Positions 1,152 to 37,100 of a stretch of 64,000 bases of DNA are shown piece after piece. The first letter of the stretch is position 1. Every line of letters starts with the position of its first letter. The notes beneath the pieces were generated by a model. It did no database searches. It was given only the letters and a program-made list of their open reading frames with translations, and had not been told where the DNA came from. Source of the stretch: Owenia fusiformis (lineage: Eukaryota > Annelida > Polychaeta > Sabellida > Oweniidae); contig CAIIXF020000007.1 of NCBI GenBank assembly GCA_903813345.2, forward strand, positions 26,585,564 through 26,649,563, given 5' to 3'. The position numbers were made by a program, and so were the translations under genes.

Positions 1152-4100
1152 GTGAGTAATCATTTTTATTTTTTATACTGAGAATTTGTCACGGGGGGTG
1201 GTGGTTGAAAATGTTACAAGCAATATTTACTTTTCATTTACTTTTTATTTAGAACTGCAACCAATGTGTTCTCAAATGTAATCAGTGATCTATATTACAA
1301 AGCCAAAAAGATTCTGAAATTGAAAAAATAACAATTGATACATGGTGAAATCTAGTGTGTAAAGGGTCAAAAGTTAAATGATGAGGTTTTATACCAGTTA
1401 CTAAATTGTTGAATTTTAATATAAAGGCTTGCTGTTATTTAAGAATTATAATGTTTTCTCGCCATAAAACAATCACATCATTTCACTCTTTATCATGAAA
1501 TCCAGTATGCTGAGAGTGTAAAAAGGTCAACATAAATCAATGATATTACTCAATCGTTTTGGCCATTAATAATGATACATTTGTATCAGTTAAGTTTCTT
1601 AATTTAAAAATGCTAATGTGAAGGATTTCTTTTATCTTAGTATAATACTGCTTCTTTGTTCTGAAACTAACACATCATTTCACTCTTCTTCTCTAGGTGT
1701 ATTTATTAGAAGAGCTCCTGAGTCCCCTTATAACTCCACTGGTGCTTCTCTGTGATATCAGACACAAGGCCCAAGATATAGTGGACTTTTATCGCAACTT
1801 TACAGTAGAGGTTACTGGGGTCGGGGATGTCTGTTCATTTGCGCAGATGGATGTCCGTAAACATGGAAATCCTCAGGTTAGTGAGCAGTTAATTCATTTA
1901 CAGTGAGCTCGACTGTATTAATAGGATGGTGGGTCCTGTTAGAATTCTGAAATTACAAATTATCCTGTTTGAAATATATTTGTACCTTGGGAAAATGAAG
2001 AAAGATTAAGATATGTCCATATGGGTAAAATAATTAGTATGTAGCACCAGTTGCTCCATATTGGGAAATCATCTTTCAAAATTTAAACAAATGGTTACAC
2101 TTTTCTAGCTGCATTCAGATGGTGACATTTTGACAAGCACAGTTAATATCTACCTTTACTTTTTAAATTGTACATGTAAAACCAGATGTTTGTATTGCAT
2201 TGAAATAAATTGAAACAATTGTTACAGTGGGTAGAGGAGGGTGAGACCCAAGCTAATCAAAAGCAACAAGGGGAAGATGGGAAGACAGAGCTGTCCTTAA
2301 TGCACTTCCATCTAACCAATCCAGAATGGAAACCCCCAGCAGACTGCAGCCTCTTTCTCAATAATATTAAGACAAATGGTGAGTGATCTTTATTCTAATC
2401 TAGGAGTACATATTCTGAAACATTGGTGAATTGTGGGATTTCCATTGTTCACTTATCATGGTATCACATTTTCCTTTTTATAGATTAATTTTCCCAATTT
2501 GTCACAAATATACAAAGACATAATAATAAGTTATATTTCCTTTAAGAGAAAAATATTTATTTATTAATTCACTACATACAGGTTTTACTGTAAATTGTTA
2601 ATGAGATATGAGTAACTTGAAATTAGATCAAAATGCACCTTACTTTGTATTATTTACCTGCTACAACATTTATATGATGTTTATACAGAATTTTAATCAA
2701 ATACCAAATAAAAGTCCCAACTCCAATTGGAGTATAAATCATGAAAAGATTGAAATAAAAAAAATCACTTTTTTAAATTTAAGTTAATTTGTTTTGTCCA
2801 TGTTCACATATAAAATATTCACTATGCCGTGTGTTTCAGAGAAATGCATCTGCAGTTCAGTCATTGTCATTACATTGTTTACAAAGGTTTCCTGCATTTT
2901 ATTACACAGGGTATATGTTATCTGTGACTCATCATCGAAAAAATATTGGTTAGTCTCTCTGGCTATAAGTCAAAATATATCATTACTTCCTCCTTTTGAT
3001 AAGATCATGTGACAGGGTGACATGTATTTTCAAATTTTCAAGAGGGTTCAGCACCTGGTTGATCTAGTCCTTGGGAGATTGCTGTCATATGATGATTTTG
3101 AGTAATATCATTCCTATCAGTGAATTAACCAGTAGTCTTGTTAGTCTCTTTCATCATATTTTGACAAAGTAAGTGTATATGATAATCAGAAAGAAGTTTT
3201 GTGAGTTTAACCATGATACTTGGCAAATCAATGTAACTTTGGATATGCTTTAAAATGATATATGACACATACTATGGAGACATTGGTATATGTCTGCCCA
3301 TGGGGAGGGGGCATACTATACTTTCGAGACACCCTGTACATGTACTGGAATTTTCGAATATTTGTTTAATGAGATAAACAACAACTGTAAAACATTGAAA
3401 TTGACACATGTGGCAATGTGCTTTCTATTTCAAGAAGGTTTATATCATAGAGACATTTAGAAGTGCAATCATACTCATAACATTAATTCTATCTTTGTTT
3501 TAGTTCTCAAAAGATATCCTTGTATCATATATAACATTTCTTGCATGATTATGTGGTATTAAAACTGGTTTTTGATCATTTTCTAAATGAATCACGTACA
3601 TATTTTATTACAACACAGTTTTGGATAAAATATGTATGCATTGTGAATCAGCACTTTATTTTTAGCTAGAATATCAGTCATTGTTTATCACTGTCATTGT
3701 TTTATCTCTTATCATTGTTTCTCACCAATCATTGTTTTTCACTGATTATTGCTTTATATACAATCATTGTATTGTCATTGATCAGTGTTTCATCACCATT
3801 CATTGCTCATCATGATCATTGTTTTATTTCGAATCATTGTTTTAATTGTTTTTTTTCCAATTGTTGGTTTACCACCGAGCATCATCGTGTTATTATGATT
3901 ATTGTTGGTTTACCACCGAGCATCATCGTGTTATTATGATTATTGTTGGTTTACCACCGAGCATCATCGTGTTATTATGATTATTGTTGGTTTACCACCG
4001 AGCATCATCGTGTTATTATGATTATTGTTGGTTTACCACCGAGCATCATCGTGTTATTATGATTATTGTTGGTTTACCACCGAGCATCATTGTGTTAATA

Positions 4101-7100
4101 TGATTATTGTTTTATCACCAATTCTTTGCTCTTGAGGTTTTTTATCTCCAATTAATATTTTATCCTGGATCATTATCCCATTGAACGAAGTTCGGTATTT
4201 TTTACATATTTGCCTTATGGTGGTAGAAGTTCTGCCCAAAAGCCGATTTTCAAAATGACCACTCCTTTTAAAATGATTTTACAGTAATTGAGGTACGATA
4301 TGTAAAACTGTAATAACAATATGTTTTAAATGTAAAAAAGCATAGTAAAGGTAGAAATGGAGATATTTAAGAAATGCATGGCAGCCATTACGATTTTGCT
4401 ATAACTTGAAAAGTAGTGGAGCGATTTTCATTTTCATTTCCATTTTCAAAATGGCTGTCATTTTTATGTTTGTTGTTTTACATGTTTTACTATAACTCAA
4501 AGAGTGTTTTATTTTGTTCATATTTGATATATGAATACTCATAAGCATGGCAAACTCTATTATGACACTTTGGCTAGCATGCTGCCATTTAGAAAAATGG
4601 CCACCATTTACATGTACATTTGCAGGCCCGTAGCCAGGATTTGCCAAGGGGGGGTTCATTTTTCAAAAATTTCCAGGGGGGGTTCACATTTGACAAATTT
4701 GGCTCAAATATGGCTAAAATCACTTGAGAAGTGCTCAAAATGGTGAAAAACTGCATGATTTTGAAAGAATTTTTGGCCAGGGGGGTTCGCCCGAACCCTG
4801 CGAACCCCCCCTGGCTACGGGCCTGCATTTGTACTATTTTGTTGAAAGTTTATATGTGCTATTAACAATTCTCATAACAATTCTCATGACAATTTGGCTA
4901 GTGAGTGACCATTTTCATGTATGTTATTATTTTACAATTTTTACTATAACTGAAAAATTAGTACATGTAGAAGGATTTTGTCCTATGGGATTTGCTACCC
5001 TTTGGCGTAACTGTTATCTAGTTGTTTTATCTCATGTCATTGTTTTATCACGGATCATTGTTTTACAACCAATCTCTATTTTTTATCTCTTATTATTGTT
5101 TTGTCACCAATCCTGTCTTATTGCCAATAATTGTTTTATCATCAATCAAAGTCATAAAATCCTATAAGAAAGTATTGTTTTGGTTTCCTTTTTTTATCTC
5201 ATCATTATTCTCGCCAAAGGTGAAATAATGTTCATCACAATTGAACAGGCAGTTTTTATGGTAAATCCATTTCCGTTAAGTGCTAGAATGGTTTGCACAA
5301 TTTCCTGTGGAATCACTATTAGTTCTATTCCGTCAAGTATTGGATTTGACCAGCTTGTGAATATAAAATAAATCTGGACAAATGCAACTACGATACCAAA
5401 GACCGTACATACAAGATGCACTATATCCAACCATCCAAAGTTTGTATTTTGCCATGCAATGTACTCTTCATCTACTCGTAAATGGCAATGGATGTCACAA
5501 ACAATTTCAATTAATATCACGATAATTAAAAATGCTTGCTTGGACATTTTTCAAATTATGATGTAACTTTTTAGATGTTGTCCTTTAGTCTAAGTTCTCA
5601 AACAACAATGGTTGTAATTAACCAGTCATTTCGTAGTAAAGGCTATCATATCAAATGTTTGCTTCCTCATATGGTGTTTCAATCTGACTATATTTGGTTG
5701 CATCCAATAAATTTCAAATCGTAAATACTGTATCGAGTATACATACATAGGCACATGACATGAAGAGTAGGTGATAAAACGTGTCATTTACTATTTTACA
5801 AAGTCGTTAAAGTGGTCCTTGTTTTATTGGATCATATTATTTTCATTTCTTTGAAGATTTGCTTGGAACTGTTCATTGAATTATTGTCTTATCTTGATTT
5901 TTTCAATGAAAAATGATGATTGGCAGTACCGTCCAAGCTCATCTACAAATTGTATTCTCATTGGTTAATCCTGTTTCAAACATTTAACAAACTGCATTAT
6001 TTTCTGGCACATACTATTATATTCATTTATATTTGACTCGTTTATATATTACTTCCTTGACGATTTGACATACGTTTATGGCACTTATTGTTGTTGGGAG
6101 TTGCTACTCTGTACAGTAGCTGTTATACTTCATCAGCCTTGCAATTCCTAAATGTTCTTAGTAATGTTCTGTAAATCACGAAATATTTTATTCCTTTATT
6201 TATATTCTTTTTTATTGTAATTTCAGTTCCTGGATATTGTTACGTGTCATTCTCTAACTGGTGTTCGTAATCATTGATCATCAATATGCAGTTCTGCATT
6301 GTTAAGTAGTACGTAATTGCGTCATTGATTTTTATAACAGTTTCAGTTCTGGGAAGATTTGCTTCAACTGTGACTGTTTAACATCACTTACATGGCATTA
6401 TCAATATTGACTTTTCTTTGTTATTTTGTATATACTTTTCAAGGAAGGAATGCATAGTTATGCCTATCTAACCATACTTGTACTATTTGCCTTGAACAAT
6501 GGACTTTGTGTAATGTTTCACATCCAAGCATCAAGTTGAAAAATATTCTCTTGATGATATAAAAGGTGAATGCTACCATTTACCTGCATTACATATTGGC
6601 CCAATTGACTATGACATGCAAGAAGTTTTTAGTGTTTTATAAGTTTGGACCATACTCAAGTGCAAAATTATGAAATATTTCTCATTCTTTCTATCATGAT
6701 GAAAGTGAATCAGTGGAAATTTTTGGATCCCATAATTTTTACTGTATGTTAAAAAGGGACAATATTGTTGCCAACTTCTGACAACAGGTTGGCATTCGAG
6801 TGGTGGTGTTTCACTTTTTATCTGCACATTTCCAGACAAACCACTTGACTGATTGATTTGGAAATTTTAAAGGGTGTTTCCTGGCCTGAAAATTTGGAAC
6901 TAATTAACTGAACTAATGCACTTGTTTTTGATCCTTTTCTGAATGATTCACATATTTTATATCACAACAAACATAGTTTCAGAGAAAATATCTATGTATT
7001 GTGGGCAACTTAAAACTTACAAGCCTACTACTACATATTGTGCAACATCACAGTGCATTTAGCAAAATTCTGCAAAATTGGGATATTGTTATTGATGTCT

Positions 7101-22131: not shown

Positions 22132-25100
22132 CTGGAAATAAACAACAAAAACATTTTTTAGTACAGAAGTCAGTAATAGTGATTGACACATGTAACCTTC
22201 TTTAAATCAGCAGGTTTACTGGTCATAAATGAATGTTCAAATCGAATGAATGTTTCAAATTGAATTGAATGAATGTTCAAATTGAATGAATGTTCAAATT
22301 TTGGATTTTGGGAATTTACGATATCTCACCTACATGTACCTTGAGGCTTAGGGATATTGGGTATATCCATTGATAATTTATGCAAGTATAAATTTGAAAT
22401 AACACAAATTCTCCTGACCTTGTTTGGCCATTTGTTTTACAGCAATGAGCAAACAATGAAATTTGACCTACTTGACGCAATACCCAATGATTGGATGATG
22501 GTTTAATAAATATACAAGGTATTAACAAGGATAATGTCACAACCTGCCATTTGTTACAGATGCTGACCACTGAACACTGTTATACATGCCGAACACTGAA
22601 CACCAACCACATAAAAGTTGGAGATTATACTTCTGGTGGTGACATTATACAAAAGAAAATGTACATACCAGCTGGTGAAAGTACTAGATAGCTAAGAATA
22701 TCGGACAGTGAAACAACTCCTAAGACCTTATCCTTATCATCCACTATAACTAGTCTATGCACTTCAGCTTTCACTATTTTTTCCATAATAGCAGAAAGAG
22801 TGTCTGTTTGTAGGCACTTGGCCACTCCTTCAAAGTAATCAGTCCTATGCTGCAGCGCCTGTTCTATGGTTATATCTAGATTGTTATACGTCTTTTCAGC
22901 TGCAAGGTTCTGAAGGTCAAATGAACAAATGTATCAAAATCCCGGACTCGTAATGTCAAAATAACAATAGAGCTGTTCATTTTAAAATTCTGCTTGATGA
23001 AAACATATAGTTGTTAAGAAAACATCAACATACACTTTAAATGCATTTTAATTTAGGAAAAAAATTAATATCAAAATCGGCATAAATGTCTTACATAAGA
23101 ATAGTGGCAAGGGTTTTCTGTTTTGTTTCTAATATAATATCATGTTATATGATAACAATAGTTGAACTATGTTTTTAATCTCTTTTTAAACACATGATCC
23201 TATGACGACAAACAGTAAACTTATAAACTTACAATGACGTCGAATTTAGCGTAAATGTTCACAACTGTTCCTTTGCTGTCAACAACTGGGAGTGCGGAGA
23301 CTTTTCGCTCCACAAAGATGTTGAGCGCCTTGATAACTGGTGTATCAGGGTTCACCTGGAATTTAAAAATCGATGATTAAAAATGTACATGATATTACAG
23401 AGGTAAGGTTTAGAAAGTTCTAAGGCGTCAAGCTTGCAATCTTGCATCAAGGCGAACATATAAATGAATAGACTAGATGCGAGTAGAAATAATCTTCATT
23501 TACGTCATCAAATATTCAAAATTCAGTCAAAGTGATGTCATATTTTAAATCTACATGTAAAAGGTCATCTAGATATATGGTTTCTAAAATTGTTTGTCAA
23601 TTTTTTTGTGTGAAAATGTGGCTGCTAGTTCAGGGAGATTCTCCATGGACCCCATGTTATAAAATCACAAAAAGTGAAATATCTTTCCTTGTATTGGATA
23701 GATAACACTTTCTTTTACTTGACATATTTTAATTTGTATAACTATTAGATACATAAGGGTGATATGAAAATTGAACCATTAAAACTGATGAATATTTAAG
23801 TTAAAGGGAACTTTCTACTATATCCGCCATGCTATCTGACCCAAATGAGCAACCTGGTGGTGAAACTGGTAACTACCTACTCGCATCTGAGTTATTGTGA
23901 ATGAATAGGACAAGAGCATTGATGCTAACTAGATAAAGTGGAGATAGACTTACAGTTGCGATATCTTTGTAGGTACCTATATCTAGTTCTTCTAAGGTCT
24001 TCGACATGAAGGTTGGTGTGGGAAGGTCAGCTATCTGCAAAATGAGAGCCAGTTTTGTTAGAAAAATGAATTTTGCAAAAGAAAATGAATAAAAAAAAAT
24101 CTGATAAATAAGAATATATTTGTCACTTACTTTACGAAAATATTCAGCCCTATGCCTGTTCATTGACCACATTAAACAATTACCCGCAATTGATTTTACA
24201 TATGTGACTGTCTTGGTGTTATAAATACATTTTAATAATTCATTAAAATGCCGAGGTCTGAATCCTGGTACAGTTCAATCGATCATTATATTATTATTTT
24301 CAGAGCATGACGGAAGTGGATTGAATCAAAGATGTTATCAAATGCAATAGGGCAGGGTAATTGTCATTTAAAGAAATTAAAAAGGCATTTATTTCACCAC
24401 ATGCCATTTGTTACAGATGCCGAACACCAAACACCAACTGCTGAACATCATCCACAAAAAAAGTTACTATAGAGACTATAATAAACACTGTTGGTGGTGA
24501 CATGAAAAATAAAAAGTATCAACTTACATACAGATACAGGAATCGAAGTATTCGTTTGTGCGTCAAAACATAGATGGCATTACCCGTCTTGTAGTCGATT
24601 ACTGGCAATCGGTGGACTCTATTGTGGATCAGTGTCCGTATGGCATCGAATAAACTCGAATCGGGGTCTATACTGACTAAAGGCTTATAATCATCTTTTA
24701 GCACCTCTGAAAGGTAAAGTGTTAAATATGAGTACATATCATTTAAGTCTTTATTTGTGAGATTTTCTTTCTTTAGGAATTGAAGCAAAAATGGCAGAGA
24801 CCGATATTTATTCTATGTAATCAAAAAGGCTAGAACTGATGTATACGCGTGACATGCATTAAAAAGCATGTGCACACAAAACACAAAAAAATGAACATGC
24901 GTTAAATTATCAAACATGAAGTATGATTTATATCACCTGGTGAAAGCCCTCGCTCTTTGTCAAATAAAAAAAAACTGAAATGCAGACGTGGCTTATCTAA
25001 TGTAGTGAACGTCACAATCTAACCTGCACTTTAATTAACCCTCTGACAACCATATGGAGTAAAACTAACTCCCAGACTTCAAATTAGAACTCTAACGTAT

Positions 25101-28100
25101 CTAATACACCCAGGACAGGGAAGTGGGTGTCTAAAATAGAATGAAACTGCTAATCTAAGTTCTATCTAATTCAGTAAAACCCCTCTATGGTCAACACTTT
25201 CGGCACCTAACAAAAAGTGTTCAAGGGGTCTGGTGTTCACCAAAACCAAAAAGGGCAAATTTAACACAGAACTCAATGTGAGGTATAGAAATGGGACCGA
25301 TTTGCCTTATGGGACCTTCTAGTTTTACTGGTTTTACAAAGCAATGGTTATCAGAAGGGTTACACCTTAAAAGCATCAAATATATCCCAAACAAATAAGC
25401 ACCTAATATGTACCAAATATGCACTTAATATGTACCAAATAAGCATTAAACATACCAATGAATTTATTTAATAAGCAAGAAATATTAACAGAAAACATGA
25501 GTATTAACTAAATTATCACAAATTAGTGAGATATATGTAAGCAGCAGAATTACCATTAAACAAAATCATAAACAATTTAAGCTAATGATTACAATAGGCT
25601 CATGCACATGAAGCATACATGGGAAATAGGCATTTGCATTTTTATATCAATTTTGTTATTTCAATAATTTCTGTCAATGGTAAATTAGCATCTGGTTCTC
25701 TATTAAATACCTTTACCTGCTTATCATTATTGTCATATTTTTATATTAAAGGATATGTATCATTACAGTATATATTAAAGCTTGGCATATGCATAAATTG
25801 GCTACCAAACAAACTTAAGGATAACATGACAAAAGAGAAAGAATACGAAAAGAATAAAAGAAACTGATAGATATTATCTACACAGCCAAATCCAGCCTCT
25901 AGATCTACCAATGATTAGGAAAACATCACAAAAGGTTTAATATCTAAGGCATAATGGTAAAAATATTCAATATTGTTTGCAGGCAAATTATTATTTACAA
26001 ATCAAGTTTGCTCGCATAGCACAACATTGGAATATTTTCAGTTTGTGAGAGCATACATTATGCAGAGCTGTAAATATAGATGGCGCAGCTTACCTGCTAG
26101 CCTCAGGGTGATCACATGATCTGAAAATGGAGGCTCAGCAGGTAATCATCAGTAAATACAGTGATCATTTCTGATTGGAGTTGTAGTTGAAGGTACTGTT
26201 TGCATTCTTTGCCCAATAAACCAACCAAGAAGAAAGACACATTGAATTGAAGCAAATTATGTTGACGGTTAATTCTTCACAGTCTTTATACAAGTAATAG
26301 CCCGAAAACATCGATTTTTTTTACAAAACTGCCTTGCTATATATATGCTTTATATTATATTATGCAAAGCAGCCAAATGACCTTATATTAATTTAACACA
26401 TTTTTCTATACCATCTCTTTTTCTAAATTGTATAGAACAATTGGAAATGCTTATCGAAGTACATGTATTTATTGAGAAATGCATCAAAACATGACGCAAA
26501 TCATACACATGTACACATACATTACAATGACCCTGTAATTTATTGGGCAAAAAATACTTGAGCCAGATGAATGGTAATTCAGTTACTCTGATAGTCATTT
26601 GAAGATTAGTTCAACTTTTTTTACGAAGGAAGCTATACATCAAACAGAACTATATTCTACATTAATAATAACCTCGTTACGTGCAGAGGGAAATTCTCAC
26701 AAATAAAATCGAACAAAAATCTCCATATATGGTCAAGACTCGAAATAAGACAAACACTTGGATTATGATAAGTCCTATTCACTCATGCGTGAAATCAAAA
26801 ATTTGAATAGAACTCATGGAAATAATAGGTTAAAAAGACAAAATCAAACTACGCTTACCTCGCCATGTTTCTATTTTGTGTTCTTCGAGTTCGTCCATTT
26901 GCACTAGTGGTGATTTATAGTACTTCTGTAGAATACTGATAAAATCTGTTATAGTAAGCATACCTAAAAGAGAAAATTCAGTTTTTTGAAACAAAAGAGA
27001 TACGTTACTGCCATTCGACTTCATTTTCAGAGTTTTAGTGAAAACATATCTGAATAAATTCTTTTCTGTAAAATCTTAACACACTCGCCTACCTCATGTC
27101 TACACCTGTGTTAAAGTTAAGACACATGTTGTCATTTTCAGTATCTTTACATCTAGTATAATACCTTGTCATGTCTTCTTTCCAAAAAATCCATAACTTC
27201 ATGCCTTATTTAAAGAAATACGAAATCCAGATTTTATCAATTTGAACAATCCTAAATGACCCACAATTAATTATTTTTTCCCGCCATCTCTTTTTCTAAT
27301 TCTATCTTTAAATTCAGTCATTTCAACCCAAACTAGGACCCCAATTTCTGGTAAGGTTCAGACATGCACAATGCTTGTTATAAGTATCACAATGAATTGT
27401 TACAATCAAATTATGTAATAGCCGCAGCATGGTAAATGATCCACAATTAATTCATTGTCTTACTTGTTGCGGCTTTATTCATTCTTACCTACAAAGTCCT
27501 GTTTGTTAGAGTCCCATAGAGGTGCAGCTCTTACACCATTGTATACTAATGCGAAGAAGGCTTTCTTTACCTGTGAATAGAAATGTACAATAGGTTGAAT
27601 AAATGTACAATAGTTTGAATAGAAATGTACAATAGGTTGGATAAATGTACAATAGGTTAAATAAATGTATAATAGGTTGAATAAATGTATAATAGACTGA
27701 ATAATTATACAATATGTTAAATGATTGTATAATAAGTTGAACAATTATACAATATGTCTAACAATTATGCAATAGATTAAATGATTGTACAATAAACTTA
27801 TATGTAAAAACTTTCAAAATATATTATTACACTATGACATACATTCATTTGTTTTTTAAAAACTACAAAATATATACATTGAATAATACAATTTACAGTG
27901 AAGTCAAATACAGTGCTGACATATAATAAATGAGTAAAAGACAAGCATACAAGCAGGGAAAATATATTAATATTAACAGTTATTTGAGATGGACCTAGCA
28001 GTGAAGTCTATATGTGGAATGGATAGGTTAAGGCCCTAGGGTGACATATATCTGCAAGCTAAGAGGCTCTGAGCCGATTATTTTGATCTTACCCAGGTTA

Positions 28101-31100
28101 TTTTTTCAGGGTAACGTGACAATTAGTCTGATATTCAAATTTGATCTGTATGTCTGAAATCAGAGTGTGAAATAAGCACTGGTCCAGTGGCTCTGACCAG
28201 TTTCTTTTTCAGCAACTATGAGAAAGTAACATTGCAAATGGTCCATACTTCATCTCTGACCGCCATGTCTAAATATTTTGATGATGCACCCTATCTGAAA
28301 TCCTTAAGACGCACCCTGTCTAAAATCCTCATGACGCACCCTGTCTAAAATCCTTATGACGCAACCTGTGTGAAATCTTTAGGACTCACCCTGTCTAAAC
28401 CATTCTAAATATAGATTGGGGAATTCATCTTAATTTAGAGAAACAAAACAATATAAGTTATGGTGACCTCAGCATGCAAGAGGTAAACATTCTAGGGATA
28501 AATATTTTCGTCACTCAAGGGGTCTACAGTTAAATACATTTAAGTTAAGTGTTTGAGTTAAATGGTCAAATGCATTAAAAGCACTGGTATAACCAAATAC
28601 TAGCAAATATGGGTATTAAAATATTAAAGTCACATATTAAAAGAATAGGAACTAAGCTAAGGAAAGGTGAGAAATGATTGAAGTTTTGCAATTACAGACA
28701 AGTTTTTCTAAAAGACAATAAAATATGAGAAATAAATTTCTAGCAAGCGTCAGCATGAATCACAGGACAAATAGAAACAGCGATGCAATAGAAATTAACG
28801 GCGACGAGTCGAGCCACATTGAAGCCTATAGACATGTGACGCATTTTACATGCGTTACTCACATTCAACCGGATGTCAAAGGTGACAAGTTTTGAGCTAG
28901 TTGGTATTAAATCATAGCATTTGTGCGCCTTCATGAACTTGCAGAATATTAAATCTTCGTCTACATCTGCAAAATGAAATATGTGTCACCGGGCTAGAAA
29001 ACAGAAACAGAGATAGCTCGTACCTAAAAATCCCATGTTGGTCATGCTTTTACTTGTAGAAAACAAGAAAGAGAGAGAAATTGGAAAATCAAGAAGTGAA
29101 CAGACATAAAATTCACATTCATAATATATCAGAAATTCATAATTAACCTTTTGAATACTCAGACCATTTTTTCAGTTCAAGGTTTTTGGTATTTTTTATC
29201 TCAATACATAGTACTGTAGACAATGATGTTAATTTTGGAATAAGTTTTGATTTTAAATGATAATTTGCGTAAAGTGGGTACAATTTATGAATGTTTTTTT
29301 TTTGTGAAAATTTCTTCAATAAATTTTTGTCACTCTTGGTATTCAAATGGTTTTTAAAATCGAGTAGCATTCATGACAAACATGAGATTTTAAGCAAGTG
29401 GGTCTCGGGTATTAGAAAGGGTGCATACTGGGAAGTGTGCAAAAGACAACCGAAAATTTCTTGATTCAACAATCGTTTATTATTAATGTTTTAAAAAGAC
29501 ATTTTTAGTCATTCAGAGGATGTACTTTGCAGATAGTAATTTTTTGTACTTATATGCAGATCAAAACTGAAAGGGAGCTATCAAATTTGCCATGTTGGTA
29601 AATGTATGAGGTTGTAATGACATGACTTTATGCATCATCTAAATCTCAAACAGTAAGTTGATCAACAGATCTACTTTCAGGGGTTATTTTATGTCGTCTT
29701 GTGCACACATTAAACATCAGAAATGTTTTGCTTTAGAACAAATCTGAGCCACCCTATCTAACTGTATATATTCCAGGAGGGGAGTGTTGACTAAAGGAGG
29801 GGGTCCCTAGACCAAAGGGTGGGGCATCCCCAGACCAAGGGAGGGGGTCCCTAGACCAGGGTAAGAGTGCTCATATTTAAAACTAACATTGTGTGGTCAG
29901 AGTGGCCAACTTTATGTGAAAATTCACTGGAAAATATGCCAAGAATATCCATTGGTTTTGTCAACTGTTGGGGAAATCAACCAAAACCACAATGTTATTT
30001 TTAAGATGGCTTAAAAACATCACACACAACAACCATGTGATCCCAGCTTATGGGAGGGGGGTTACTCACATTTAACGTCGTGTCAAACACGATCAACTTA
30101 GAGCTAGTTGGGATAAGGTCATAACATTTGTGGGCCTTCATGAATTTAGAAAATGCGCAATCTCTATTTTGTTCTGCAAGAGAGTATAACAATGACATGC
30201 ATTCAAATATTCAAAAAATATTTTTAACGAGTCCAAGGATTTGTTTCACAACTGATATCACAACAACATAAACACATTACAAATGCATTACACTTTTAAA
30301 ATGTTTTAAAACTATTGAGAACATATTTAAATCTACATTTTTGAACAATTTGAAATAAATTAGAAAATATATATGGTTTGGAATACATTTCTTACATACA
30401 AACTTTTTTCAAATGGTGTATCAAAATACATGTTTCCATGTGTACTCTATTATGTATTAGCCAAACATGATAACACCTCTCTCAGACAAGTTTCAACTCC
30501 AAAAATTATTATTTTAGATGAACCGTTTTAACACGACTCACATATGTTGATTACTTTTCCTGGCCAATCTTTTTTTTAAATATGGAGAACCCCAATGTGC
30601 TATAGTATATTAATGAAGTTAAATAATTTATTTATCAGGATTAATATGATTGTGACCTTACCTAAATCTTCTATTTCCATAGCCTCAAGTTCAGCAGTAC
30701 TGCTTGGCAGCTGAAAAAATAACAACAAAAATATAAAAAAAATGTAAACATATATACAAACAATATATATGACATAAAAGCACTTATGAAATTTTTGGTT
30801 GGTGTGAAAGTTCCAATCAGTGTTTGAATAGTTCTCATGTAAAAGAATATGATGAAAGACTATGTGCCTTGATGAAATACCTAAATGAAAAACCTTGATA
30901 AACTTTAATGAATCACCCATCAATTTTCAGTATAAATGATCTTGAAATAAACACTAAAACCAATGAGTCTGTGAGAGACAAGTGATCTTGTAAAAAGGCA
31001 AGTATCCATATCCATGTGAACAGAAAGGTAATCATGTGAATGGACAAGTAATCTTGAGAAGAGGCAAGTAATCATGTGAATGGACAAGTAATCTTGAGAA

Positions 31101-34100
31101 GAGGCAAGTAATCATGTGAATGGACAAGTAATCTTGAGAAGAGGCAAGTAATCATGTGAATGGACAAGTAATCTTGAGAAGAGGCAAGTAATCATGTGAA
31201 TGGACAAGTAATCTTGAGAAGAGGCAAGTAGTCATGTGAATAGACAAGTAATCTTGAGAAGAGGAAAGTAATCATGTGAATAGACAAGTAATCTTGTCAA
31301 GAGGCAAGTAATCATGTGAATGGACAAGTAATCTTGAGAAGAGGCAATTAATCATGTGAATGAACAAGTAATCTTGAGAAGAGGCAAGTAATCATGTGAA
31401 TGGACAAATAGTCTTGAGAAGAGGCAAGTAATCATGTGAATGAACAAGTAATCTTGTCAAGAGGCAAGTAATCATGTGAATGGACAAGTAAGCTTTCATA
31501 TGAAGATACAAGTAAACATTTAAGATGTAAACTTTTCTACATTTCGTTAAGTCAATGACTTGGAACGGGACGAAATAAACCATATAGAAATCTAAAGATA
31601 AAATCATGTGATTTCTTCTGTCTATATATTGATTGAAACAACAGGCAAAGACACGGTGAATCACTGTTTGGTAACGATTGAATTCAATTTTCCTATATTA
31701 TAACATGTATTTTTGGTATGTGATATGTATGTTGCAATATTGCGCATCATGCTGTAAGTGGTTTATTTCTGTAAACAGTAATACCTGTGTATAATGAACA
31801 TTTTATTGCCAAGAAAAATGTTCAGTGTTGGTAGGTGTCAGTGGAGAATGTGCGGAGGAAGGGTGTTCACTGGAGACAGTTGTTCACAAGGGATGAGTTC
31901 ATGTTCAGTGTTGGTAGGTGTTCACTACAGAGAGGGTAATTTATTCAGAAGTCAGTAGGGTATGAGCGGAAGAAAGGTGTCGACTAAAAACAGGTGTTCA
32001 TTAGAGAGGTGTTCACCGGAGAGAGGTGTTCACTAAGACAGGATTTACTGTACTTAAACATTTAGGCAAATTCCTTCAATATTCCTTCAAGGATTCAAAT
32101 ATCTTTCAATAGAGCAGTTTATCTGCTATATAGAACATACTCAAGATTAGACTACTAGTTTTGATCTGAGAAATCACGATATATCCTGAAAATTATCTCA
32201 CTCTGACCAAACACCTAGTATATGAATATACTAGAATAGCATATATTAGATACATTTTTATATCAATCTCCCTTGAAGCCAAGATCTATTTGTTGTATTC
32301 CAACAATAAACGAGGCTATTAACACACAGTACAGAAAGGTTGATGAATGGTAGGATGAATTGTGTACAATCATGTGAAGACCCCTTAGAAACAAAATAAA
32401 ACAAAGTATTTTCTAAAACGACCAACTACTGCATGTATATTATTGATGAGCTGTTTAAAACAAATCGGGGATATTATTCTGATTTCCCAAATCCCAAGGT
32501 CCTTATATGATTAAATAAACTACCATTGAAATACCAAGTAGTGGGGAATAAATATATGAGATCATGCATAAGTGAGGAAAATCCTGGTATAGCAATCAAT
32601 CAATATAAAAATGTTGATGCATGACAAACAATAGGAACCTGTGTATCAAATATCATTGTGAGCATGTTTAAAATGAGAAATGTATAAAAAAAATGGTGGA
32701 ATCAACAAGGCATAAACAATATGAGATCCATACTCTAAAGCATATAGAAATGCCAGAATGTCAAACACCTTGTTCAAAAGATACGATCTACAGAAAAGTT
32801 TTTTTTCTCAATGGGTTTATTAGTTTAGCTTTATTTCCACGACAAGAATGAGCTTAAAACCAGTACTAATAATTAGACACCTTTATAGATTAGCAGGTGT
32901 TCCCATATTAACTTTTTAATATGGGAGTCAATGAAATAGAGAAGTGTTCACAGTAGAGAGGTATTCAGATTGGAGAAACATTCAAATTAGGGAAACATTC
33001 AAATTAGGGAAACATTCAAATAAGGGAAACATTCAGATTAGAGAAACATTCAAATAAGGCAAACATTCAAATTAGGGAAACATTCAAATTAGGGAAACAT
33101 TCAGATTAGAGAAACATTCAAATTAGGGAAACATTCAAATTAGGGAAACATTCAAATTAGGGAAACATTCAAATTAGGGAAACATTCAAATTAGGGAGAC
33201 ATTCAGATTAGAGAGACATTCAAATTAGGGAAACATTCAAATTAGGGAAACATTCAAATTAGCGAGACATGGATGCGAAGTTTTACTACACACAAACACA
33301 TTCAGTACCATCCAATAACCACAAAGGCTACAATGAATGTTTTCCTATTGATTTTAAAATTGTTCCCGTTATATGGTTACCTGGGAATCAGCTGATGTTC
33401 ACTACTGTATGATTCACTCTCATCAGTGTAAAACAGGCTGTTGCAATTTATTTATTCAAATCGGAAATGTTATGATGAATATCACTTTTGATTGGAATAA
33501 CCTTAACGAAATGAGATCTAATGTACACTTACTGCAAGATGTACTATACTGAGAATTATATCATATCATGCAATTCACCAATATTTTTGGACAATTCACA
33601 TTATTTGTTTCTCATTTGTCCTCCAAGAGATTCCAGGTTTTGCTATATGGTGCATCTTTCTTGTGTTGGCCTGAATTTGTATAGTCCAAACACAATTTGG
33701 TCAATTATGGAAACTCATTCCCGATTTGGAAGCCTCTAATACCTCACTGAAAGGGGTGGATTATATTGTTCTCTTCAGTTGAAAACTTCAAAGGCTGGCA
33801 AAGCTAGCTAATGCGAAGCTGCATCAATACAAGTGTAATAGATGGCTGTATTTATCATATACAGAGTTATTAATGAGTTCTCTACATCCAATCGTATTGT
33901 CCTCAAGTGAACTTATTTCAGGAAACAATGTACTTAAAACATTGATATTGAGATGGCAATGAATGCTGAACACAACTGAATGTGAATGTTCATGAAAAAA
34001 TGCTGTGAAGAGATTTTTGAGATCTTTCATTTTTTATGAATGGTGGCATGTTTTTTCTAAAGTATAATATTTTTAGTGTTTATTCCTTTCAAATCGTATT

Positions 34101-37100
34101 ACTATTTCTTTCATATTAAACAATGTATTTGTACCTGTAATTCAACAGGGATAAATAATTCTCATTTTCAAACAATTTTGATATAAATTTGATCCCACAG
34201 AGACCTTAATAACCAATAATCCAGCTTCAGTAAAGACAATAACATAATCCAATCTCAGGGAGGGGGGGTTGACTCACCCTGCTAGTGGAACCACTAGGTG
34301 ACCCAGACTTGAATATGATATAGCTGCCATGTGCGTCTCCTAGGGATTGTGACTTGGTCATTGGAGCACGGTGATCACTCCAACGCCTGTATGGCATAGC
34401 TGAAATACATAAACAAATACATAAATAAAACATTGGTGGAGTTGGAGTGGGTGGATTTCCAGAAAAATTTGTATTTCCTCTCTACCTATATTCTTGAGAT
34501 TTTCAATTAAGAAATGGGATGTGGATAAAAGTCACCTAAAATAAAACACATAAACAATTTATGTAGTCTTTCATTCTGAAAATGTAAAAACACATTTTCT
34601 AAGAAAAAATAAATCACAATATAATTTCTTACGATTCGAATCTGCATGCAAGAGAACAGATTGCAAACTGTCCAAACTCTCCCGAATTCTTGCTATCTCT
34701 TCTTCACTCATTGAGCTTGTATTGCAACATTTTCCAAAGAAATCCATAGTATTTATGACACCATGATTCACATCTTCAAAATTTCAGGTTCTACATAGAT
34801 GTGTTACTATGGTAACTATGACAATTGTGACATCATTTTGGGAATTCATATTTTAATGAAATACAATGAAATAATAGAAATAGCTATAAGGCCTGTATTC
34901 AATATAGTTTATTACAAATTCTAAAAATGCATATCAATAAGACCTAAGATGCAGTCATATACTATATGGTGTGGTGTGTCAAAAATAATCAAATGGTGCA
35001 AAAATGTGATCACTCTCAGTGTGTGGCATGAAAAAAATGTGATCTAATAATAATAATGGTTTCAGACAAGTATACAATTTGTTTGGACATAAAAGCACCT
35101 GTGTTATTAGTTTGTTGATTAAAATGTTAACAGTACCTAAATCTAAGGGCATTACTTCTTATATTACTATATTCCTACATTCCTTCACTGTTTGTACATT
35201 TATAAGCTGTTATTTCCCTAAACGAATGCATTATTCAATTGGATCACCAGTAAGGGGCAAATTCCAAACCCAAACCAAAATGAGATGTGCCAAATGAAAT
35301 GTCCTTTAAACTTAACAAAGAGGAGAAAAGTAATCCAAACCTTCTTTAAATTACTTTCCTGACAAAAATATTGATGGTTAAAACACTAATACAAGCTGAC
35401 AATGTTACTTTGGTATGATTCGCGAATTCAACTGCCAGTTGGTGGATTAACCTGCTATTTTATGGCCAACTATGTTTGATATGAATAGCACCTGCCATTA
35501 TTCCACTCCTTTAAATGAGTTGGCCAAAAAAGTAGGTCAAACTGTCAGCCGTTAGTTAATTGAATATTATACTTTTATATTGAGGCTGGAATACCTTGTG
35601 AGGTGGACATATTTATCTGGTCCTAACCATATCCATGGGCTTTCAATTATTTAGTTGAAAGCTCATGCCATATCATACTCCAAATGCAGGGTCCCCAACA
35701 GTATCTCCCCCGTTCCCTTCTTCAGAGTGGTTAATGTTTGGACCCCTGCATTTGGAGGATGAACCATATTCACTTTAGGAAACTTTACTGTATCTATATT
35801 AAAGGTTGACTTCACAATGCTCTAAACATAAAATGCAAGCGTGAAAAAAAATATGGCAAATGCAGGTTACCAAAATTAAAATACCATCATGCCTTATTAG
35901 GTAGGATAGACATCCACAGACAAACCAAATGGGACGATCTTTCCATATCCATGGCAACATTCAAGGCCTCTCCCTACTAAAAGCCTTTAAGTACCCAGAT
36001 TTGGGCTATTCACTTGACCTATTCCATTGTCTGCAAAACGAGGGGTCGGGGCTTCAATCCCTACTGGGGTGGACTGACTTTTTCACACCAGCCCTAAGAA
36101 CAGGATTTCATTCTGTGTTTTCATTAACCTATATGAAAAAGGCAGTGAACCCCATCATTTGCTGAACTGTAATATGCAGTCTCTGTATATCATGAGCAAC
36201 TCTACCTCAATGCATGTTAGAGAAAATAAAACAAAATATTATATACATGCTCAAGCTGTTAGTTTCCATCAAGCTATGTATTAAATCACATGGAATATGT
36301 ACATATTTTCTGTCACATGAGAAAGCAGTAACATTTTATGATGTTACAATTGGATTTTTTGTGATAAGTGATAAAAAGTGAAAATGGTGTATAACTCCAA
36401 TGTTTTTCAAGAGAAATTTTGAGAATTAATGGATTTCAAAAGTTCAAGCTCAAGAATTTTTGTATGACAGGTAATTCTATCTCGCGTGACAAAACATATT
36501 TCATGTGACAAACCCTAATATACTTTATCATGATGGTTTTGAATCAAAACAGTTCCCACGAAAAAATGCGTAAAACTGAGAAAATTATAGTCAAGTCATA
36601 AAGTTCTGATCTTCTTGGGCTTGTAGCCAGCAAAGCCGCCTGAACCCCTCGAACCCCCCCCCCCCCGGCTAAGGTGCTGTTGTACTGTCCCTTGTTTGGA
36701 GGATAGAAGGTGGAAGGGGAAAGCCCAGAATTCAAAGATGAACTTCTCTCTATATAAAAGATGAAGCTCTTGAGGTTAAACTTATGAACCTATTGAGGTT
36801 AAACTTATGAACCTCTTGAGGTTAAACTTATGAACCTATTGAGGTTAAACTTATGAACCTCTTGAAGTTAAACTTTTGAACCTCTTGAGGTTAAACTTTA
36901 TGAAGATGTCACATTTAGGCTGTGTGGGCTCACCGATCACCAAGGTGTAAATACTTTGGGGCAGACGGTGGGGCATGGCATAGATATATGGTAGCCAAAA
37001 CAAACAATTTTACAGGAAGATATCAGCTCCATTCACACTTAATTTTAAAAATTTAATCAAAAAATTAATGCCCAAAATTAGCCACATTGTGGTGAACGGT

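Follow-up and report, generated by a model that had tools for sequence, protein, structure and literature searches.

The minus strand of the window, i.e., the whole 64-kb stretch of DNA analysed here, carries an AMPK gamma gene, whose exons we assembled from the sequence between an upstream coding exon, U2, and exon E9; sequence 5' of U2 lies outside the model. The protein spliced from U1 through exon A (form A) aligned with the gamma-1 chain 2v8q_E, which we take to be rat, over residues 15-319 at E = 2.1e-137. This whole-length similarity to gamma-1, together with four CBS repeats and a conserved 17-residue segment preceding CBS1 that is common to exon A, exon B, and gamma-1, places the gene in the PRKAG family. 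All of its exons are read on the minus strand. U2 (34278-34399, 122 nt) has one open frame with AG/GT borders; it encodes a serine-rich, basic stretch and, standing ahead of U1, points to a long N-terminal extension, which we liken to the N-terminus of mammalian gamma-2. In the intron before U1, two short tandem repeat arrays were seen by eye on the minus strand (~31040-31490 and ~32970-33260), with units like TTCACATGATTACTTGCCTCTTCTCAAGATTACTTGTCCA and TTTGAATGTTTCCCTAA. The shared upstream exon U1 (30662-30710, 49 nt), placed by the model and its splice sites, runs from phase 0 to phase 1 and is followed by exon A (30070-30173) and exon B (28863-28966), each of 104 nt with 34 whole codons. 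Downstream of the pair are the shared exon E4 (27489-27570, 82 nt), which belongs to CBS1, E5 (26859-26963, 105 nt), E6 (24528-24706, 179 nt; CBS2), E7 (23954-24034, 81 nt), E8 (23233-23355, 123 nt; CBS3), and E9 (22669-22909; CBS4), the last of which extends 241 nt up to a possible GTATGT donor, the point to which the model reaches.

A preliminary description of this DNA had proposed that A and B are a mutually exclusive pair, and the coordinates, lengths (104 + 104 nt), sequences, and phases it gave (both exons enter in phase 1 and leave in phase 0) were all reproduced on recheck. Also borne out were the shared donor, in that AAT followed directly by GTGAGTAA closes both A and B, and the 18 common residues with divergent ends on either side (VDEDLIFC in A vs. 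QNRDCAFS in B before them, VTFDIRLN vs. IVFDTTLN after them). Since U1 leaves in phase 1 and E4 begins in phase 0, the four junctions that had been named for the pair (30662>30173, 30662>28966, 30070>27570, and 28863>27570) are compatible in phase; the first codon, which is split at the U1 junction, becomes Glu with A and Asp with B. The argument that the reading frame accommodates only one of the two exons also held, as joining A to B brings a stop at codon 2 of B, while leaving out both shifts the frame and brings a stop within E4. A and B are adjacent, homologous exons of equal phase whose double inclusion and double skipping both break the frame. Both appear open, constrained, and spliceable, and from this frame logic it is very likely that they are used mutually exclusively.

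When exon A was used as a tblastn query on the window, B was found at E = 1.9e-13, which excludes a chance resemblance. The two exons are the same at 69/102 nt, and 16 of the 33 differences fall at third positions. At the protein level, 24/34 residues are the same, 11 of them with different codons, i.e., the 34 whole codons comprise 13 that are identical, 11 with silent differences, and 10 with residue changes. These changes are confined to the ends (6/10 within the first eight residues and 4/10 within the last eight), and the 18-residue core has no residue change despite 11 nucleotide changes and nine differing codons. When 33 random changes were placed on A, at least 13 residue changes resulted in 20,000/20,000 trials, compared with the 10 observed, and a stop arose in 69% of the trials. 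Nei-Gojobori dS was undefined both for the whole exon and for the core, and the maximum-likelihood dS was at least 9.5, a value readable only as "saturated." Intron sequence next to A and B (150 nt) aligned no better than single-base shuffles (184/200 as good on each side), indicating that neutral DNA as old as the duplication has decayed. Considering the unchanged core in the face of nucleotide changes, the saturated synonymous divergence, and the decayed flanks, this pairwise comparison inside one genome indicates that B is old and constrained. In simulations of a neutral exon B, core and frame survived four substitutions with P = 0.08, six with P = 0.02, and 10 with P = 0.002, which, together with the decayed flanks, points to an old duplication with both copies kept by selection. 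Both exons are under protein constraint, weakly so at their variable ends, where Nei-Gojobori values for the two ends together (dN 0.62, dS 1.22) show far less constraint than in the core. These values fit a divergence in function, but also a loose constraint. A pattern search for relatives of the pair gave 21 matches in viral_contigs and six in genome_contigs, collections of viral and prokaryotic sequence, and none was confirmed.

In the protein, A and B each correspond to gamma-1 23-56 as numbered in chain 6c9j. Of the 34 exon residues, 22 lie before the Pfam CBS match and 12 inside it, the match opening at residue 23, and pre-CBS1 segment thus makes up about two thirds of the exon; the CBS profile scored A at 23.6 bits and B at 22.8 bits, both slightly below the curated cut-off of 24. 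The preliminary description had put the difference exactly where the first nucleotide-sensing CBS repeat begins, which is correct for the 12 residues that enter CBS1 but not for the 22/34 that precede the match. Before the core (gamma-1 23-30), A and B differ in charge and hydrophobicity, and after it they differ at gamma-1 49, 50, 53, and 54, where CBS1 starts. From the geometry of CBS domains, site 2 would presumably be lined by the strand that enters CBS1. Among the nucleotide sites of gamma, 1, 3, and 4 are described as occupied and site 2 as empty (review), and the alpha-RIM1 motif is described as lying on CBS2, close to site 2 (review). To bind the beta subunits, gamma has been reported to need the stretch directly ahead of its Bateman domains (Viana 2007), and it is portrayed as contacting alpha-beta mainly through a sheet formed by two beta-subunit strands and one gamma strand (commentary). 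Since 22/34 residues lie before CBS1, in sequence with a reported beta-binding role, the effect of the swap is better sought in contacts with beta and in the packing of CBS1 than at the nucleotide. Tuning of assembly or of CBS1 packing is likelier, judging from the positions of the differences, than altered nucleotide contacts; taken by itself, an effect on the docking of beta or the packing of CBS1 is a proposal that we hold to be less likely than not.

Searches of the animal's own genome with protein queries returned only exons of the gamma locus (4/4 and 8/8 matches). With the DNA of exon A as query, the genome returned the self match alone, and since even B was missed, such a search detects close copies only. 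The CBS family profile gave four matches, three in the gamma gene and one on contig C6, and two matches to the beta subunit family, ~200 bases apart on contig C8, were taken as exons of one locus. These searches found a single AMPK gamma locus and no other copy in the genome; they scored the best candidates only and read masked stretches as N, so that further gamma copies may have been missed. Retrocopies or paralogues recording the splicing of the pair were also sought, and none was found in the protein and DNA searches, the latter covering near copies only.

These observations make it probable, in our judgement, that A and B are a functional exon pair of which one or the other is used. The pair would have originated long ago, when one internal exon of the single AMPK gamma gene found in the genome was duplicated in tandem. 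Each mRNA would then include either A or B, as both or neither would break the frame, and the swap may tune the docking of gamma on beta and the packing of CBS1, so that one gamma gene could give rise to two AMPK trimers. A splicing factor, a regulator whose existence we infer, might make the choice between the exons according to tissue or metabolic state. The isoform diversity of vertebrate AMPK is attributed to gene duplicates (review). The gamma locus described here suggests another route, i.e., a single gene with a swappable, constrained exon where beta binding meets CBS1, and the free and fixed residues of A and B offer a testable surface for how the assembly of gamma or its response to nucleotides can be tuned.

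In a simple frequency-based scheme, the donors and acceptors of A and B scored within the spread seen for the eight other exons modelled in the gene. The splice sites of both are GT-AG with U2-like flanks, and the introns around the pair measure 488 nt (U1-A), 1103 nt (A-B), and 1292 nt (B-E4). With introns of these lengths and such sites, neither steric closeness nor a U2/U12 clash, one possible mechanism of exclusion, is likely to enforce the choice. As for docking and selector pairing between introns, the best duplexes reached -27.3, -25.8, and -33.2 kcal/mol, vs. -33.0, -28.5, and -31.5 kcal/mol for the best of six shuffles per pair; the value of -33.2 vs. -31.5 kcal/mol belongs to the A-B intron with the intron after B, the one combination of the three that slightly surpassed its best shuffle, and no clear regulatory structure emerged. 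Just upstream of A is a TGCATG (30196-30201, minus strand), a candidate repressor site, and 10 nt downstream of B is a GCATG (28849-28853, minus strand), a candidate activator site, both weak and noted post hoc; we take these to be Rbfox-type motifs. Rbfox proteins follow a positional rule, by which a site upstream represses an exon and a site downstream favours it. The TGCATG before A and the GCATG after B would suit a candidate Rbfox-type factor that represses A and favours B, but a third GCATG, 81 nt upstream of B, is at odds with so simple a scheme. GCATG was present in 3/4 of the 100-nt flanks of A and B vs. 2/16 flanks of the eight other modelled exons (Fisher P = 0.03), a post hoc comparison in which the motif was picked after looking.

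Other explanations of the pair bear on the same evidence. B might be a dying duplicate, with A the exon used and B included rarely or in error. The last eight residues of B depart from gamma-1 at 50, 53, 54, and 56, vs. 49, 54, and 56 in A, and its acceptor is slightly poorer in pyrimidines (11/17 vs. 12/17), as such decay would have it. However, the core residues are unbroken under saturated synonymous change, the simulations tolerate few neutral substitutions in B, and B retains the same donor as A along with an intact frame and splice sites, which makes its decay very unlikely. We likewise consider it highly improbable that A and B belong to transcripts with different starts, the promoter rather than splicing making the choice. 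Most short forms of mammalian gamma-2 and gamma-3 appear to use alternative start sites (review), and in the fly, a neuronal form of SNF4Agamma is described as having an N-terminus of its own. Before B, moreover, a short frame opens with ATG and closes in phase 1 (29045-29024), but its donor is weak (2.5 bits) and its use would leave an intron of 57 nt. In the introns before A and B, no exon was found that begins with ATG, ends in phase 1, and has a donor score of at least 4, and A and B both enter in the exit phase of U1.

An explanation that has the exon pair itself in common with the one we prefer is that A and B are both used, that the difference between them is neutral for the protein, and that the pair controls expression through a frame-breaking, poison outcome. 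The identical core and the similar CBS1 scores of A and B would agree with this, double inclusion or skipping would indeed yield premature stops, and a transcript of the fly SNF4Agamma is listed as a target of NMD. Considering, however, that 10/34 residues differ, at both ends and with charge changes included, in a segment reported to bind beta, expression control as the sole purpose of the pair seems unlikely, and we favor a functional choice between A and B.

Mutually exclusive exons in a metabolic enzyme are known from PKM1/PKM2, which resemble A and B in this respect and belong to an unrelated gene. The preliminary description knew of no such pair in AMPK gamma, and in agreement with this, none like A/B was found among the matches listed from the literature on AMPK gamma and AMPK splicing, a body of sources that leaves most subscription journals uncovered. 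The Drosophila gene SNF4Agamma is, like the present one, a single AMPK gamma gene; 16 transcript isoforms are given for it, and an insect EST-graph study lists it among genes with mutually exclusive exons, so a related pair may exist in insects. Unlike for A and B, the place and homology of those exons are unstated in the part of the study available, and the neuronal form is distinguished at its N-terminus. In mammals, the products of PRKAG1/2/3 and the gamma-2 short forms are described as differing N-terminal to the CBS repeats, as A and B do, but these variants come from separate genes, alternative starts, or a spliced N-terminus and not from the exchange of an exon spanning pre-CBS1 and CBS1 sequence.

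Exons 6a and 6e of coq-2 are similar to A and B in being tandem, homologous, alternative internal exons of an energy-metabolism gene with few changes in a conserved core; they differ in that gene and protein are not the same and in that their effect on the quinone was demonstrated by experiment (eLife 2020 e56376). The a and e exons are reported there to differ by F204L and A243S, and the e exon to occur only in rhodoquinone-making helminths, annelids, and molluscs (eLife 2020 e56376). In the genome studied here, a locus of the UbiA family (L001, G000 C2:21735500-21745400) contains two homologous exons (3090-3220, 131 nt, and 6720-6853, 134 nt), which differ in LTLNWG vs. MTFNWG and in IYSHQ vs. 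IYAHQ. These F/L and A/S differences resemble F204L and A243S of the coq-2 e and a forms; the assignment to COQ2 of L001, the one locus examined among those of the UbiA family, rests on those exon motifs. The pair suggests that the same genome uses the alternative-exon device in another energy-metabolism gene and that the animal can make rhodoquinone, and it would by extension suggest a lineage able to live with little oxygen.

If the choice of A or B retuned the sensor, at beta docking and CBS1, whenever a facultatively anaerobic invertebrate with one gamma gene passes between aerobic and anaerobic conditions, and did so alongside the coq-2 a/e switch from ubiquinone to rhodoquinone, splicing would reset electron carrier and fuel gauge together; we think this quite unlikely. 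No GCATG was found within 200 nt of the two L001 stretches, which start 7 nt before the settled exon starts, and joint control of A/B and the coq-2-like pair is therefore only an idea; co-regulation through GCATG was set aside as unsupported. The flanks of A/B and of the L001 pair have 7- and 8-mers in common, a comparison made with no control and not used as evidence. The preliminary description had assumed a molluscan context for this DNA, which is not supported; weak markers point to an annelid as the likely source. The molluscan hemocyanin family had no match in a genome profile search run without a positive control, and the erythrocruorin linker family PF16915, which we take to be annelid, had three matches (G000 C6:27033687-27048438), one of them with an internal stop.
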